From Clostridia bacterium (GTDB lineage Bacteria; Bacillota; Clostridia; Oscillospirales; QAKW01), in NCBI GenBank assembly GCA_017436525.1, contig JAFSCX010000038.1, positions 1 to 35,680 on the forward strand: DNA of 35,680 bases, read 5' to 3'. How positions within the stretch are numbered: position 1 is the stretch's first letter; each line of letters starts with the position of its first letter. The position numbers and the translations under genes are program-made. Under the pieces are notes generated by a model. The model did not search any database. It was not told where the DNA came from and saw only the letters and a program-made list of their open reading frames with translations. Positions 19,801-27,291 of the stretch are shown in pieces.

Positions 19801-20148
19801 CTATAATAATTTCTGCCGCTTGGGGCAGGAGCAGAGTCCGAATAATTCTTCTTGCTTGCGAAAGTGCACGCAATCGGCGCAGCTATCGCCGGATGAAGGG
19901 CCTTGATAGCCCTCGCAGATATCCTGCATGGCCGTAACAAAGGGCAGGCCGTCTTTGGTAAAGCGGGGGCTTTTCAAAAAATCGGGATAGATGGGAATGG
20001 GCTCATTGAATCGGCTGTGCCGCTCAAATTCCTCATAATATCCATAATAAAGATCAAAGGTGATGCCCTCGATGGTTACGCTCTTATAAAGAGTGCCCTC
20101 CTTGGGAGGGGCTTGAGAGAGATCCGAATTGAAAAGATTGGTAAGCAT
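19801..20148 (-). CDS. Small cysteine-rich protein of unknown function
   Basis: 115 residues from the ATG at 20148, which has AAGGA about 7-10 nt upstream; a longer frame to 20223 lacks an RBS. The N-terminal two thirds are rich in Tyr and Phe (ITFDLYYGYYEEFERHSRF). The C-terminus carries five Cys and a His (DICEGYQ, then DSCADCVHFRKQEELFGLCS, then CPKR), spaced like a small zinc or iron-sulfur site. There is no signal peptide. It lies 12 nt upstream of the giant surface protein in the same direction, so the two are probably cotranscribed, but a functional link is not shown. Confidence 0.7.
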   Translation of the reverse strand: MLTNLFNSDLSQAPPKEGTLYKSVTIEGITFDLYYGYYEEFERHSRFNEPIPIYPDFLKSPRFTKDGLPFVTAMQDICEGYQGPSSGDSCADCVHFRKQEELFGLCSCPKRQKLL

Positions 20149-20200
20149 ATGAAATCCTTTCCTTGGAGAGGGTCTCCGTTTTATTTTCGGCAAAAAGAAA

Positions 20201-20239
20201 ATCTGCCATACTGATTTTTCCAAAAACAGTATAGCAGAT
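20201..20239. promoter_or_regulatory. Inverted repeat overlapping the likely promoter of the surface-protein operon
   Basis: ATCTGCCATACTG (20201-20213) and CAGTATAGCAGAT (20227-20239) pair with one mismatch. On the minus strand the distal arm contains TATACT, a possible -10 box. The plus-strand side is followed by six T residues, so it could also act as a hairpin terminator, but no plus-strand gene precedes it. Confidence 0.4.
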
Positions 20240-20270
20240 CTTTTTTATTTTCGGTATTACCCGTTCAAGT

Positions 20271-20302
20271 AAAAATCGGCCAAAAATTCATGGCCGATTT
20301 TT
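20271..20302 (-). terminator. Terminator of the dual-HTH regulator gene
   Basis: A perfect 12-bp stem (20271-20282 with 20291-20302) ending in five A/T pairs, 20 nt after the stop of the regulator gene. Confidence 0.85.
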
Positions 20303-20322: not shown

Positions 20323-21561
20323 TTATAGAAAAGCGGCGAAATTTTCGCGGGAGGCACCGGTCTTTGCCGCCACATTGCTGATCGCCTGCTTGACCGCCGA
20401 GACCGACATATGCAGCTTTGCCGCAATCTCGCCGTTTTTCATCCCGAAAGCGGCAAGTTTTGCCACTGCCCGTTCCTTTTGGGAAAGGGTGGTAATAATG
20501 GTGCGCCCGCGGACCGATCCGCTCAGCTTCGACCAGCCTTCATTATAGATCCGATAAAGGCGGTTTACCTGCTCCCATGCAGAAGGATCGGCAAGGGTGA
20601 GCCGCTGCTCCAGCAGATGGGAAAGGACACGGCAATATTCTGCCAGCAAGCCATACAGCCGATCGGGGCGCGCAAGAGCGATGGCCCGATCAATATGATA
20701 GATGGCCTGCTCGTCATTGTCGCTGTTGTGGTATACGGTGGCGCAGGTAAGCCGCAGATAAATCTCGGAGATCAATGCTTTATCGGCCATTGCCTGAGAA
20801 ATCATGGGCTCAAGGGTGTTGGGGATCATCCCCATCAGAGAGAGGCCCTGTATGCCTTGAAGATTCATCTCTTTGGTGGCCACTGCATAAGCGGAGGCAT
20901 ATAAATATTTGGCATAAAAGACCTTGACCGCAGGCAGGGCATCATGGTGCAGCGGCTCAAAGCGCCCCATCTTAAACCATTCGGGGAAGGCGGAGACATC
21001 GTAAAGCATGCTATCCACCGCTGTAATGGAAAAGGCGGCAATATCCCGATCCTGATCGCTTTTTACCGGCGCTTCCGCAATATGGATCTTGGCCTTTCGC
21101 CAAAGAGCCAGATCCCCCCGCCAGATGGCGCAAAGGGCAAGGAGCATCCCTGCGGAAATCATGGCATAAAAGCCGCCTTTTTGGTTGAGAAGCTCATTGG
21201 CGACATCATATGCCTTTCCGATCTCTCCGCGGGAATAGGCGATCTCTGCTTGCAGCAGGATTTGGGCTTCGGGATTGGCGCTGAGGGCGGCAATGCACTC
21301 CTCGGCCTTGCCGGAGGCAGAATAAAGATCGGTCATATGCAGAAAAGGGGTCTTTCTCGGCATGGGGAGGTCGTTTTCAATGAGAGGGTGATTTTGCGCC
21401 TTTTTTCTGCCGTCGGCAGGGCGGAGGGCACCTTTTGGAATCATCCAATCTCGGCCCATGCGGCAAGCCCCCTCAATCTTTCCCTTTTGGCATAGGGCTT
21501 GAATGTAGCGAAGAGAAACCCCCCAAAGGGCGGCGGTCTCCTGAGCGGTATTCCATTCCAT
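20323..21561 (-). CDS. Dual-HTH regulator: N-terminal excisionase/MerR-like and C-terminal LuxR-type domains
   Basis: 412 residues. Residues 1-50 look like a MerR/excisionase helix-turn-helix (MEWNTAQETAALWGVSLRYI, QALCQKGKIEGACRMGRDWM, IPKGAL). Residues about 75-345 are helical with tetratricopeptide-like character (AEIAYSRGEIGKAYDVANEL, then LRLTCATVYHNSDNDEQAIY). Residues about 350-412 are a LuxR/GerE HTH (LSQKERAVAKLAAFGMKNGE, IAAKLHMSVSAVKQAISNVA). There is no receiver or kinase domain. It therefore carries DNA-binding modules at both ends, which is unusual. AAGGA precedes the ATG. Its promoter sits between two copies of CGCCATGGCG, a likely autoregulatory site. Terminated by the hairpin at 20271-20302. 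Confidence 0.82.
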   Translation of the reverse strand: MEWNTAQETAALWGVSLRYIQALCQKGKIEGACRMGRDWMIPKGALRPADGRKKAQNHPLIENDLPMPRKTPFLHMTDLYSASGKAEECIAALSANPEAQILLQAEIAYSRGEIGKAYDVANELLNQKGGFYAMISAGMLLALCAIWRGDLALWRKAKIHIAEAPVKSDQDRDIAAFSITAVDSMLYDVSAFPEWFKMGRFEPLHHDALPAVKVFYAKYLYASAYAVATKEMNLQGIQGLSLMGMIPNTLEPMISQAMADKALISEIYLRLTCATVYHNSDNDEQAIYHIDRAIALARPDRLYGLLAEYCRVLSHLLEQRLTLADPSAWEQVNRLYRIYNEGWSKLSGSVRGRTIITTLSQKERAVAKLAAFGMKNGEIAAKLHMSVSAVKQAISNVAAKTGASRENFAAFL

Positions 21562-21584
21562 GGATCAAACGTCCTTTCTAAGAA

Positions 21585-21637
21585 TTGTGCGCCATGGCGT
21601 ACACTATAAGAATAGTATACTACGCCATGGCGCACAA
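21585..21637. promoter_or_regulatory. Paired operators: perfect 17-bp inverted repeat with palindromic arms
   Basis: TTGTGCGCCATGGCGTA (21585-21601) and its exact reverse complement (21621-21637) flank 19 bp. Each arm contains CGCCATGGCG, itself a 10-bp palindrome, so the site offers two dyads 36 bp apart. One arm lies between -35 and -10 of the regulator's promoter, the other just after the transcription start. This is the geometry of a repressed, probably autoregulated, promoter. Confidence 0.8.
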
Positions 21638-21642
21638 TGCAA
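21614..21642 (-). promoter_or_regulatory. Promoter of the dual-HTH regulator gene
   Basis: On the minus strand TTGCAT (21642-21637), 17 bp, TATACT (21619-21614). The spacer is the distal operator arm. Confidence 0.7.
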
Positions 21643-22725: not shown

Positions 22726-23547
22726 TTAAAAATCGCTCAGCCCTTTTCTGTATTTTGCGGGGGAGAGGCCGGTTTTTTGCTTGAATATATTAGAAAAATA
22801 GTATTCATCCGCAAAGTTTAAGTGATCGGCGATCTGCTTTACCGATAGGTTGGTATTTATAAGCATATCCTTGGCAAGCTTGATTTTTTTCTCCAAGAAA
22901 TAGGCATAGGGAGTAATACCGTAGGCCTTTTTGAAGATTTTGATGCTCTGGGATTCGGAGCGGGAGATATAGCGGCATAATTCCTCCATTTTGAATTTAG
23001 AAGCGGCATGATTGCGAAGATATTCCCTCATTTTTTCAGCAATATCGAATGGGTGATCGATGCTCTTTATATGCTCTCTCATTTTTAGAAAGGCTCTATT
23101 GAGAATGCAGATGATTTCTTCGGTGCTGTCTTCCTTATTCTCTTTTGCTAAAGCTAAGATCATTTGCAGTTCATTGCTCAAATCAAGTCCTTTGAAATAA
23201 TAGATATTTTTAAGGCCGTAGCCCTCGATCAAGCTATCCGGCAAGCTGCCCGATACATTGATAAAGATTTTTTTCCAGGGGGTTTCTTTATCGCTGAAAT
23301 AGTGGTGAGTGGTGCCGACTTGCAAAAGATAGGTGTCGCCCTCCTCGGGATAAAAGGTCTGACCATCAATCCGGAGCACACCCATCCCTTTTTCGATATA
23401 TTCAAGGCAAGCTACATCGGAATTCTTTCGGCTGATCTCATAATTTTTATCGGGATAGGTGATGCCGCACATCTGGATCCTTAAAAGATCCCTGATGCCG
23501 CCGGTTTGATTTACATAGTATATTTCTTCGTTTCCGGCCCTTTTCAT
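22726..23547 (-). CDS. AraC family transcriptional regulator with cupin-like sensor
   Basis: 273 residues. The N-terminal half is a cupin-type arm (ACLEYIEKGMGVLRIDGQTF, then PEEGDTYLLQVGTTHHYFSD). The C-terminal 100 residues are an AraC DNA-binding domain (FKMEELCRYISRSESQSIKI, FKKAYGITPYAYFLEKKI, then LSVKQIADHLNFADEYYFSN and TGLSPAKYRKG). The ATG at 23547 is chosen because GAGGAAAA lies about 6-10 nt before it; the ATG 15 nt upstream has no RBS. Divergent from the GtaA-like gene, which it probably activates in response to a sugar or glycan (inference). Confidence 0.9.
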   Translation of the reverse strand: MKRAGNEEIYYVNQTGGIRDLLRIQMCGITYPDKNYEISRKNSDVACLEYIEKGMGVLRIDGQTFYPEEGDTYLLQVGTTHHYFSDKETPWKKIFINVSGSLPDSLIEGYGLKNIYYFKGLDLSNELQMILALAKENKEDSTEEIICILNRAFLKMREHIKSIDHPFDIAEKMREYLRNHAASKFKMEELCRYISRSESQSIKIFKKAYGITPYAYFLEKKIKLAKDMLINTNLSVKQIADHLNFADEYYFSNIFKQKTGLSPAKYRKGLSDF

Positions 23548-23582
23548 AACAGTTTTCCTCATTTTTTAGACGGTAATTTATA

Positions 23583-23640: not shown

Positions 23641-25569
23641 ATGATGATGAAAAAAAGACCGGCGGCAGTCCCGCTCTTTACAGTAGACCCTTATTTTTCC
23701 ATCTGGTCCTGCGGGGATAAGCTTTACAACGGCTATACCAAGCATTGGACCGAAAAACCCTGGCCCATCTTCGCAGGGGTGAATATCGACGGAATTACCT
23801 ATAGCGTTGCAGGGGTGGATCAGGATTATAAGACCTTTTACAGCAGAATTGCGCAAACAGATCTGCAGATCACTCCCTTAAGCACCGTTTATACTTTTGA
23901 AAATGCGGTTGCCAAGGTGAAGCTCACCTTTACTACTCCGCTTTTGCTTGATCGGTTGGATATTATGACCCGCCCTGTCAGTTATATGGCTTATGAGGTG
24001 GAGGTGAAAAAGGAGGGTGCCGAGGATGTGCAGTTTATCTTCGGTATCAGCGCCCAAGGGTGCGTAAACAGCCACGATCAGAATGTTGCTTTTGAGAAGA
24101 CTCCGTTCTCCCTGCGCTGCGGCAATGTGGTGCAAAATCCCTTGGCGGAGGCGGGCGACAGAGTAACCATCGATTGGGGCTATCTGCATCTTTGCGATCA
24201 AGAGGCCTATATCGCCGCGCCGCCCACCATGTATGGCGGCATCAAAGCAATCGGGCGCACCACCGATGTGAGAAGAATCTCCCATCCCTATACCTTGAAT
24301 AAGATCTATAATCCCCATTCCGATATGCCCTATCTCTATACAGCAAGAGAGGAACTCTCCGGAGTTATCACCGTTGCCTATGACGAGATCAAGCCCATTG
24401 AATATTTTCATGAGCAGATGGACGAGTATTATACCAAGTATTTCGCAAGCTTTGAAGAGATGGTTCAGGCGTCCGTTCGGGAATATCCCGAGATCAAGAA
24501 ATTATGTGATGCATTCGATGAAAAGTTGATGGCAGAAGCCGGCAAACTTGGCGAAAAATATGAATATATTACCTCTCTTGCCTATCGGCAGGCAGTTTCT
24601 GCCCATAAGCTGATCGAAGATACGGAGGGCAATATCATCTTCCTCTCCAAGGAGAATGATTCCAACGGTTGTATCGGCACACTGGATGTAACCTATCCCT
24701 CCATCCCGCTCTTCTTGAAATATAATCCGGAGCTGGTGAAGGGAATGCTTCGCCCCATCATCAAATATGCCAATTCCGATGCATGGACCTTTGATTTTAC
24801 TCCCCACGATGTAGGCCGGTACCCAATCGCAAACGGGCAGGTCTATGGCAATAATAAGCTTAAATATCAGATGCCGGTGGAGGAAGCGGGCAATATGCTC
24901 CTTTGCCTTGCGGCGGTTAAGAAATATAAAAACGGGGATACCGAGCTGTTTGATGCCAATCGGGAGCTGATGAAGGGCTGGGTAAATTACCTGTTGGAAT
25001 ATGGCTATGATCCTGCGGACCAGCTCTGCACCGATGATTTCGCAGGGCGGCTGGCCCGAAACTGTAACTTGAGCCTCAAGGCCATCTTAGGCATTGCGGC
25101 TTATGCCGATCTCTCCAATGATGATTCCTTCATGGAAATCGCAAAGGATTGGGCGAAAAAATGGGAAAAGGATGCCAAGGCCAACCATGGAGCCACTGTG
25201 CTTGCCTTTGGCAACGAGGATAGCTGGAGCATGAAATATAATATGGTTTGGGATAACCTGCTGGGCTATCGTCTCTTCTCCGACGAAGTGAAGAAAAATG
25301 AAATGAAGGTCTATCGCGAGAAGATGAACCGCTACGGTGTTCCTCTGGATTCCCGCGCCACCTTTACCAAGATCGACTGGCTCATGTGGTCTACCTGCAT
25401 CTGGGAGGATCGGGAATATTTCGATCAAGTGTGTGAAGCGATCGCCAATATGCTCAACGAAACCTCCGATCGCGTTCCCATGACCGATTGGTATGATACC
25501 ATTTCGGCAGATTATAAATCCTTTATTAACCGTTCTGTTGTCGGCGGGTTGTTTATAAATCTTCTATAA
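23641..25569 (+). CDS. GtaA-like protein of the DUF4965/DUF5127/DUF1793 family
   Basis: 642 residues, no signal peptide. The order of motifs follows the glutaminase A-like family: an N-terminal DUF4964/5127 beta-sandwich (VPLFTVDPYFSIWSCGDKLY, then HWTEKPWPIF), the central DUF4965 region (AYRQAVSAHKLIEDTEGNII, then GTLDVTYPSIPLFLKYNPEL, then TPHDVGRYPIANGQVYG), and a C-terminal alpha-toroid (DDFAGRLARNCNLSLKAILG). Fungal members were described as glutaminases, but most bacterial ones are uncharacterised and resemble glycosidases; the reaction is open. Three ATGs in a row begin the gene; GGAGG ends 3, 6 and 9 nt before them, so 23644 or 23647 is spaced best. The gene is monocistronic and divergent from an AraC regulator. 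Confidence 0.88.
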   Translation: MMMKKRPAAVPLFTVDPYFSIWSCGDKLYNGYTKHWTEKPWPIFAGVNIDGITYSVAGVDQDYKTFYSRIAQTDLQITPLSTVYTFENAVAKVKLTFTTPLLLDRLDIMTRPVSYMAYEVEVKKEGAEDVQFIFGISAQGCVNSHDQNVAFEKTPFSLRCGNVVQNPLAEAGDRVTIDWGYLHLCDQEAYIAAPPTMYGGIKAIGRTTDVRRISHPYTLNKIYNPHSDMPYLYTAREELSGVITVAYDEIKPIEYFHEQMDEYYTKYFASFEEMVQASVREYPEIKKLCDAFDEKLMAEAGKLGEKYEYITSLAYRQAVSAHKLIEDTEGNIIFLSKENDSNGCIGTLDVTYPSIPLFLKYNPELVKGMLRPIIKYANSDAWTFDFTPHDVGRYPIANGQVYGNNKLKYQMPVEEAGNMLLCLAAVKKYKNGDTELFDANRELMKGWVNYLLEYGYDPADQLCTDDFAGRLARNCNLSLKAILGIAAYADLSNDDSFMEIAKDWAKKWEKDAKANHGATVLAFGNEDSWSMKYNMVWDNLLGYRLFSDEVKKNEMKVYREKMNRYGVPLDSRATFTKIDWLMWSTCIWEDREYFDQVCEAIANMLNETSDRVPMTDWYDTISADYKSFINRSVVGGLFINLL

Positions 25570-25916: not shown

Positions 25917-27050
25917 TTATTCTGTTGCCGAGAGCATATTTTCAATAAAGATGCCGTAGCCGGCGGTGGGGTCGGAGATCAGAACATGGGTTACGGCGCC
26001 GATGATCTTGCCGTTTTGCAAAATCGGGCTGCCGCTCATGCCCTGCACAATACCGCCCGTTGCGGCCAGAAGATCGGGGTCGGTAACCTCGATGGAGAGA
26101 TTTTTATATTCCGATAAGTTATTATTGACCTTTGTTATACGAATTGTATAGGATTTCGGCGTATCTCCCTCTAAGGTGCAGAGAATTTGGGCTTCTCCCT
26201 CTTGGATTTCGTCCTTGAGCGCGATGGGGTAGGCTACGCCCTCAAAAGAGCGTTTGGCGGTGCCGAAAAGACCTGCGCCGCAGTTTTTCTCTACCGAGGC
26301 CAAGGTCTCTTTTTCCAAGGCACCCAAAAGCTCGCCGGGGGCATCCTTTTCTCCCGCTTTGATGCCGGTAATGCGGGCATCTACCATGGTGCCGCTATGG
26401 ACCGGCATGGTAAGGCCGGTGTCCACATCGGAGATGGAGTGGCCAAGGCCCGCAAGGGAGCCGGTTTCGGGGTCATAATAGGTGAGGGTGCCGAGGCCTG
26501 CGGTGCTATCCCGCACCCATAGGCCGATGGAATAATCTCCGTCCCGCAGGGAGGGAGTAACCCAGACTGTTTGTTCCCGTTGGTTGCGGAGAATCTCTGC
26601 CCGCTGTTTTTTGCCGCGGCAACGCTGCACCTGCTCTTTGAGCTCTTGATTGGAGCGAACCTCAACGCCGTTATAGGAGAGGATAATATCGCCCACTTGA
26701 ATACCGGCGTTAACGCCCGCGCTTTCCTTTTCTGCATCGACTACAATGACGCCTTTGGTATAAAGCTTGATCCCAAAGGGGGTGCCCAGTGCCACTAATT
26801 GCTTTTCCGCAATTTCCCGAATGGTGGCATCTTTAATAGGAAGAAGACCGAAAAGCTTGATCTTGGCGGTATAGGAATCCTCCGAAGCTTCTTTTTTATC
26901 GGTCTCAAAGGTATAAAAAACAGAGGATTCCGGCAGTTGATCGGGATAGCAATGATAGGTAGTGGGAATCCTTTGGATTCCATAGCCTAAAAGAGTTGCC
27001 ATCAGCCCGATCCCGACTACCAGACTAATGGCTTTGAACCATTTTTTCAT
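25917..27050 (-). CDS. spoIVB: SpoIVB peptidase (family S55), sporulation signalling protease
   Basis: 377 residues. In sporulating Bacillota, SpoIVB is made in the forespore, secreted into the intermembrane space, and cleaves SpoIVFA so that pro-sigma-K is activated in the mother cell. The N-terminus is a membrane anchor (about 8-26). A PDZ domain lies at about 85-160 (AGVNAGIQVGDIILSYNGVE). The S55 domain carries His204 (GLGHSI), Asp326 (VTDPDLLAA) and Ser341 (GMSGSP); the Asp-Ser spacing of 15 equals that of the B. subtilis enzyme. The chosen ATG at 27050 has AAAGG rather far upstream (about 12 nt); a longer open frame exists but encodes only the repeat array. An unusual palindromic array lies upstream. 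Confidence 0.93.
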   Translation of the reverse strand: MKKWFKAISLVVGIGLMATLLGYGIQRIPTTYHCYPDQLPESSVFYTFETDKKEASEDSYTAKIKLFGLLPIKDATIREIAEKQLVALGTPFGIKLYTKGVIVVDAEKESAGVNAGIQVGDIILSYNGVEVRSNQELKEQVQRCRGKKQRAEILRNQREQTVWVTPSLRDGDYSIGLWVRDSTAGLGTLTYYDPETGSLAGLGHSISDVDTGLTMPVHSGTMVDARITGIKAGEKDAPGELLGALEKETLASVEKNCGAGLFGTAKRSFEGVAYPIALKDEIQEGEAQILCTLEGDTPKSYTIRITKVNNNLSEYKNLSIEVTDPDLLAATGGIVQGMSGSPILQNGKIIGAVTHVLISDPTAGYGIFIENMLSATE

Positions 27051-27133
27051 CTTAAAAAACAACCTTTCAACGGTTATTTTTTGCGTCGACGAAAAAAAGA
27101 TACCAAGCAAAAAGAGTGAAAATTTCCATTTTT

Positions 27134-27237
27134 TTCTTTTCAACACAAATGATTTGTGTTGAAAAGAAGAGGATGGGGGATACAAATCATTTGTGTTGAA
27201 AAGAAAAGGCTTGGGGGGTACAAATGATTTGTGTTGG
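27134..27237. repeat. Tandem 37-38 bp repeats, each centred on a palindrome, upstream of spoIVB
   Basis: Three contiguous units each contain ACAAAT-(G/C)-ATTTGT, centred on 27151, 27188 and 27226, followed by GTTGAAAAGAA and a G-rich run in the first two. The first copy is part of a 35-bp perfect palindrome (17-bp arms, 27134-27150 and 27152-27168). They lie 85-190 bp before the spoIVB start codon and after the terminator of the preceding gene. They could be stacked binding sites for a dimeric regulator. Confidence 0.85.
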
Positions 27238-27254
27238 ATGAGGTAAAAGAAAAA

Positions 27255-27291
27255 AGGAACTGTCAAAAACTTGAAATTTTTGACAGTTCCT
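27255..27291 (-). terminator. Terminator of the sigma-like membrane protein gene
   Basis: A perfect 15-bp stem (27255-27269 with 27277-27291) with a 7-nt loop, followed by T residues on the minus strand. It is 17 nt after the stop. Confidence 0.92.

Follow-up and report, generated by a model that had tools for sequence, protein, structure and literature searches.

The window, by which is meant the whole stretch of 35,680 nucleotides that was analyzed, carries on its minus strand the gene for a regulator with two putative DNA-binding heads, a gene for a small protein with four cysteines and a gene for a giant surface protein. Coordinates of the genes and of the promoter elements and proposed binding sites are given in Table 1. 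The giant protein contains VWA, FctA/Spy0128-like isopeptide (six stretches) and SpaA-like folds according to Pfam, and its C-terminus carries a QPQTG-type sorting signal of the sortase type, a make-up resembling that of pilus or adhesin proteins. Next to the locus an AraC-type regulator gene (22726-23562, minus strand) is divergent from a gene of 642 amino acids (23641-25569, plus strand), possibly a sugar-utilization pair adjoining the locus. A cluster of overlapping perfect inverted repeats of 13-18 bp was seen at 27134-27291, around the mechanical start of the open reading frame 25917-27266 (minus strand). No Rfam match was found within the window.

Table 1. Features of the regulator locus, with their positions in the window and the basis of each assignment
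Feature	Position	Strand	Basis
-35 element TTGCAT, regulator promoter	21637..21642	-	sequence; 17-bp spacing to -10
Candidate operator A (TGTGCGCCATGGCGTAGT), fills -35/-10 spacer	21619..21636	-	orthologue sites also centered 11 bp upstream of the -10 center
-10 element TATACT, regulator promoter	21614..21619	-	sequence
Candidate operator B (TGTACGCCATGGCGCACA), 33 bp downstream of A, over presumed transcription start	21586..21603	-	site downstream of -10 in 81/89 orthologue promoters
Two-headed regulator gene, 412 aa	20323..21561	-	Pfam; AlphaFold secondary structure; orthologues across the order
N-HTH recognition helix, residues 17-25	21487..21513	-	helix 17-25 in model; four of the seven most informative columns
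C-terminal LuxR/GerE-type HTH, residues 357-412	20326..20493	-	Pfam; PDB sequence matches; class tracks box 20253-20281
Output box (GGCCGATTTTTACTTGAACGGGTAATACC), proposed C-HTH site	20253..20281	-	aligned in 84 loci; fixed distance from -10
Extended -10 (TGC TATACT) of downstream operon; no TTGACA-type -35	20228..20236	-	alignment
Predicted read-through terminator hairpin, followed by TTTTCTTTTT	20191..20246	-	-23 kcal/mol, z -5.5; 5' arm contains next promoter's -10
Small protein with four cysteines (115 aa counted from the conserved ATG); candidate for the first output gene	19801..20148	-	homologue beside regulator in 106/117 loci
Giant surface protein, 2149 aa	13339..19788	-	Pfam; C-terminus read from sequence; homologues follow small gene in many loci

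The regulator is built from an N-terminal HTH_17/MerR-like winged helix, a flexible linker, a TPR-like helical body and a C-terminal LuxR/GerE helix-turn-helix (HTH). A sequence-only reading of this DNA had placed a MerR/excisionase-like HTH and a LuxR-type HTH at the two ends, with a helical region between them. Both domains were found above their Pfam cut-offs, the HTH_17/excisionase-like domain at residues 5-46 (PF12728, 29.7 bits against a cut-off of 27, E 8e-7) and the GerE/LuxR domain at residues 358-403 (PF00196, 29.6 bits against 23.5, E 5e-7), and the helical region was present in the secondary structure of the AlphaFold model. The N head was modelled as a winged helix (strand 3-5, helices 6-13 and 17-25, strands 33-35 and 38-42) with a pLDDT of about 85. 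The arrangement of the heads in the model is uninformative because the pTM was 0.46. The best PDB sequence matches of the C-terminal HTH were NarL, VpsT and DevR. Foldseek against the PDB gave no match below E 0.001; MalT domain III, NprR and Rap were among the fold matches of the TPR-like body, none of them significant. No STAND ATPase domain was matched by Pfam across the 412 residues. The TPR-like body may serve as a sensor or as the dimer core.

Orthologues were collected by protein searches, which covered the genus, the order and one large family within that order, and by an alignment-based scan of named genomes. A single-protein query returned 0 loci in the scan of genome contigs and the alignment query returned 80. 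Together the searches gave about 120 regulator orthologues of 39-69% identity, found across the order; a search for the architecture in other species had been proposed. The 80 named orthologues belong to metagenome-assembled Oscillospiraceae/Clostridia, and where titles state a source it is the ruminant gut. Most of the genomes used here are metagenome-assembled.

The promoter TTGCAT-17-TATACT that had been read in front of the regulator gene is present on the minus strand (-35 at 21642-21637, -10 at 21619-21614). Both palindromes of the form CGCCATGGCG were also found on it as described, one in the -35/-10 spacer and the other downstream of the -10. The reported dimensions had to be corrected. 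The exact inverted arms are 18 bp and not 17 bp long (21584-21601 and 21621-21638, 19 bp between them), and the center-to-center distance, given before as 36 bp, is 33 bp for the inner palindromes and 37 bp for the arms. Further perfect arms of 17-18 bp occur near 27134-27199; such long arms are no rarity in the window, and arm length alone is therefore little proof. Genome-wide work on the source genome consisted of pattern searches. Allowing up to three mismatches, TGTRCGCCATGGCGYACA was found in the window pair and at one further site with three mismatches, and the relaxed pair TRCG-N6-CGYA, twice, matched the genome solely at the regulator promoter. Pairs of the CGCCATGGCG type, for which a genome search had been suggested, are thus unique to this promoter.

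Operators were counted in 88 orthologues of at least 38% identity, in the 150 bp upstream of the start codon, with dinucleotide shuffles as the control. The strict definition was an inverted repeat NNNCG-N5/6-CGNNN of 15-16 bp. Two or more such repeats were observed in 60 of the 88 orthologues compared to 1% of the shuffles. Neighboring centers stood 22-25 bp apart in 32 cases and 32-36 bp apart in 48, with three outliers. The sites kept fixed registers from the -10 center: the position at -11, inside the spacer, is followed by sites at +14 and about +38 in one series and by sites at about +21 and about +55 in another. The window pair at -11 and +22 belongs to the 33-bp register. In many orthologue promoters three or four equal copies followed one another at a single period. 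The sequence CGCCATGGCG itself was considered as a conserved element and rejected; of the earlier expectation that the inverted repeat would be conserved upstream of orthologues, the architecture stood and the sequence did not. By the strict definition 28 of the 88 orthologues had one site or none, in part because of asymmetric half-sites. Asymmetric operators of approximately ACGGCG-N6-CGAAC-AATA, in two or three repeats and with a one-sided ATA extension, were seen at L186, L201, L203 and L081 and were missed by that definition. No comparable arrays were found in distant homologues of about 27-30% identity.

The position of the sites relative to the promoter points to repression. A site downstream of the -10 was present in 81 of 89 orthologue promoters and sites upstream of the -35 were nearly absent, the few far-upstream values being due to one locus, L174, which is cut inside the gene. 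The spacer site is where MerR proteins act and the N-terminal fold is MerR-like, which could mean that the N head activates from the spacer as MerR does. MerR activation uses a -35/-10 spacer of 19-20 bp. The window has a 17-bp spacer, as do 85 of the 89 orthologue promoters, so that assignment to the class of MerR-type activators was rejected by its spacer length; since further copies of the site lie over the start site and leader as well, activation in the MerR style is judged unlikely. Since many of the sites are positioned downstream of the -10, where the transcript could pair with itself, the arrays might act as hairpins of the 5' leader and not as DNA operators. Sites in the untranscribed -35/-10 spacer, the one in the window included, are at odds with this, as are the tight bimodal spacing and the fact that the half-site tracks a DNA-binding helix, and this explanation is regarded as extremely improbable.

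The outer bases of the half-site vary by clade (TTCG, TAGCG, ATGCG, CAGCG, TGTCG and others), and this variation was compared with that of the two heads. As the CG core is fixed by the site definition, only the outer bases are tested. Among 98 regulators, operator distance correlated with distance in the N recognition helix (r 0.44) and in the N-HTH (r 0.24), compared to 0.065 for the C-HTH. The partial correlation was 0.24 for N given C (P 0.001) and -0.02 for C given N (P 0.64), although Mantel P values, like those of the sign tests, overstate independence because the regulator sequences are related. The seven columns most informative on the half-site, 26, 17, 7, 29, 25, 19 and 22, all lie in the N-HTH. 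When the two domains pointed to different relatives, the array resembled that of the N relative in 36 of 38 comparisons, among which partners are shared between focal regulators. A longer N-terminus accompanies operators whose center is 5 bp and not 6 bp: at least 16 residues stand before Trp13 in 13 of the 14 regulators with N5 operators, compared to 0 of 84 with N6 operators. The fourteenth, L187, has an in-frame ATG upstream and its start is probably further upstream.

Natural variants behave in the same way. The N helix SQRQVQHLC is combined with three different C-HTHs (L066, L129 and L115), all with TAGCG operators. Across seven genomes, each of the 15 TAGCG sites sits at a regulator's own promoter, as judged by contig and position. 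L126 has nearly the same C-HTH as L066 together with another N-HTH, and its operators are different. In L133 the N-HTH is lost and the array is absent, with the downstream gene kept. It is well supported by this comparison of sequences that the array at the own promoter would be read by the N head and not by the C head.

These data bear on the earlier proposal that one protein clamps the two palindromes of its own promoter together by its two different ends. The protein does have two DNA-binding ends, and there are two sites at a fixed spacing. Both palindromes are, however, copies of a single element that varies with the N-HTH only, and the three or four equal copies spaced by a single period in many promoters are not explained by two unlike heads. 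The C head, moreover, has a conserved candidate site of its own at the next promoter, described below. Bridging in this form is therefore considered very improbable, and assignment of the array to the N head is preferred.

Paired arrays of the TTCG type were also seen away from the regulator, at L261 (3046), L262 (2920), L264 (3156) and L265 (2270). The genes that they precede encode large, lipoprotein-like secreted proteins; cysteine-rich repeats occur in several of these and leucine-rich repeats in one. This suggests secondary surface-protein targets of the N head in some genomes. Other matches to TTCG pairs (G030, G555, G408, G533 and G492) are near-identical dispersed sequences, for example TTCGCGACCGCGAACAAGCAAACTTGCGATTTCGGCTTGCCGAA, and are probably unrelated repeat elements.

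Of the 117 loci with more than 600 bp of downstream sequence, 106 have a homologue of the small gene, which nearly always comes directly after the regulator gene on the same strand; in L082 and L084 it is upstream and on the other strand. Its four cysteines are conserved in the alignment of homologues. No Pfam or NCBIfam match was obtained for the protein, and ten loci of the distant homologues, whose identity is about 27-30%, yielded a single weak match to the small gene. The promoter of the small gene is strikingly conserved: its consensus ggcC.AAAAA....TTTT.GGTAATAcc is separated from TATACT by about 19 bp, the last of them TCTGC. The box in it has the form ACCT…AGGTAATACC and lies at a fixed distance from the extended -10; with its ACCT...AGGT ends next to the promoter core, we take it to be lux-box-like. 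In 65 of the 84 loci the GGT core of the box keeps the same distance to the -10, which was picked with a score rewarding an upstream GG motif; such a score favors the register and does not fix it. In the window's own box the left half is weak and overlaps the terminator-like repeat of the regulator gene at 20271-20302.

Variation of the box followed the C-terminal HTH (r 0.67) and not the N-HTH (r 0.22), with partial correlations of 0.65 for C given N and -0.03 for N given C. Comparisons in which the domains were discordant showed a box resembling that of the C relative in 41 of 44 cases, again with partners shared among focal regulators. With the latter half of the TPR body controlled for, the partial correlation of box and C-HTH was still 0.52 (P 0.002, with the overstatement of independence noted above for related sequences), and the 12-bp spacer adjoining the box was a much weaker control. 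The box/-10 pattern occurs once in the genome of the window, at 20228-20261, and in 42 orthologue-bearing genomes nearly all matches fall where the regulator gene meets the small gene. One stray box in G716 (L275) is followed by no recognizable copy of the small gene.

The C-terminal HTH might also be a module for dimerization or for contact with RNA polymerase only, the box then belonging to another factor or to a strong unregulated promoter. This would agree with the closeness of the box to the polymerase contact region and with the persistence of the small gene beside L133, where the N head is lost. Against this, the box follows the C-HTH beyond general divergence, as the partial correlation and the 41 of 44 comparisons indicate, and its matches are concentrated at the one junction. 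Such a role without DNA recognition is rated as rather unlikely. That the box at the small gene would be read by the C-terminal HTH is well supported by the sequence comparison.

The promoter of the small gene also appears to be embedded in a terminator. In 75 of the 85 orthologue loci, among which 25 different 5' arms occur, the -10 lies inside the stem of a hairpin that precedes a T-rich tract. As the -10 of the operon forms the 5' arm of the terminator, transcripts continuing past the regulator gene should be ended at the hairpin, leaving the box-driven promoter alone to serve the operon. Small-gene transcripts would start within the hairpin and escape termination. This mode of action is inferred from structure.

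Taken together, the preferred interpretation is a one-component regulator whose two heads have independent specificities, with the N head repressing the regulator's own promoter and the C head activating the neighboring operon, to which a probability of about 0.72 is given. The assignment of heads to sites, the geometry of the arrays and the conservation of the locus are well supported by comparison of sequences. A dimer of the N heads would bind the NNNCG-N5/6-CGNNN repeats in the -35/-10 spacer and/or over its own transcription start, and from the position of the arrays over the start site this should result in negative autoregulation. The C head would bind the lux-box-like element, which lies a short distance ahead of an extended -10 that has no -35; from this position it should activate the small four-cysteine gene and the giant surface-protein gene. 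The dimer state and the signal are likewise inferred. By position alone the signs could also be reversed, the regulator activating itself or repressing the operon. A further idea is that one dimer occupies the array with its N heads and the box, about 1.4 kb away, with its C heads at the same time, forming a DNA loop. This is thought to be quite unlikely; if true, shut-off of the regulator's own gene would be coupled to switch-on of the surface-protein operon.

Each head belongs to a known family. With the LuxR/GerE regulators of the NarL/FixJ superfamily, including the closest PDB sequences, the regulator shares the C-terminal four-helix HTH. Unlike them, it has no receiver, acyl-homoserine-lactone or STAND domain and carries a second, unrelated N-terminal HTH with a different candidate operator. 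The N-terminal winged helix and the operator in the -35/-10 spacer are common to the MerR/excisionase (HTH_17) proteins, from which the regulator differs by its 17-bp spacer, its operator arrays over the start, the TPR body and the second HTH. A helical repeat body beside an HTH is also found in MalT/LAL regulators and in the TPR-bearing RRNPP sensors Rap and NprR. The present regulator differs from these in being without an ATPase domain and in having HTHs of two families at opposite ends. Membership of the MalT/LAL group was rejected, as Pfam gave no STAND ATPase match in the 412 residues.

Lambda integrase is one protein with two DNA-binding domains (arm and core) of different specificity. 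Xre-RES is a multi-site autoregulator with a palindromic autoregulatory repeat, according to PMC12204516. Both resemble the regulator in having two DNA-binding surfaces on one protein or complex; unlike both, it is a transcription regulator whose heads apparently serve two adjacent promoters and evolve independently. The open-access literature searched contained no description of this domain combination or of a two-headed autoregulator, and nothing on parallels to lambda integrase and AtxA/Mga. The combination and the division of labor are thus undescribed in that literature.

With HTHs of different families on two promoters, "control yourself" and "control your target" would become exchangeable modules. 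The HTH_17 fold is poorly studied, and the differing auto-operators form a collection for it: the natural swaps, the loss of a head in L133 and about 100 pairs of head and operator make up a data set for the DNA-recognition code of HTH_17. Design rules are open to testing, namely the spacing, which is about 25 or about 33 bp at set registers from the -10, and the promoter inside a terminator stem. Surface proteins would be the proposed output of the regulator, and the gut bacteria concerned are a large, uncultured group.
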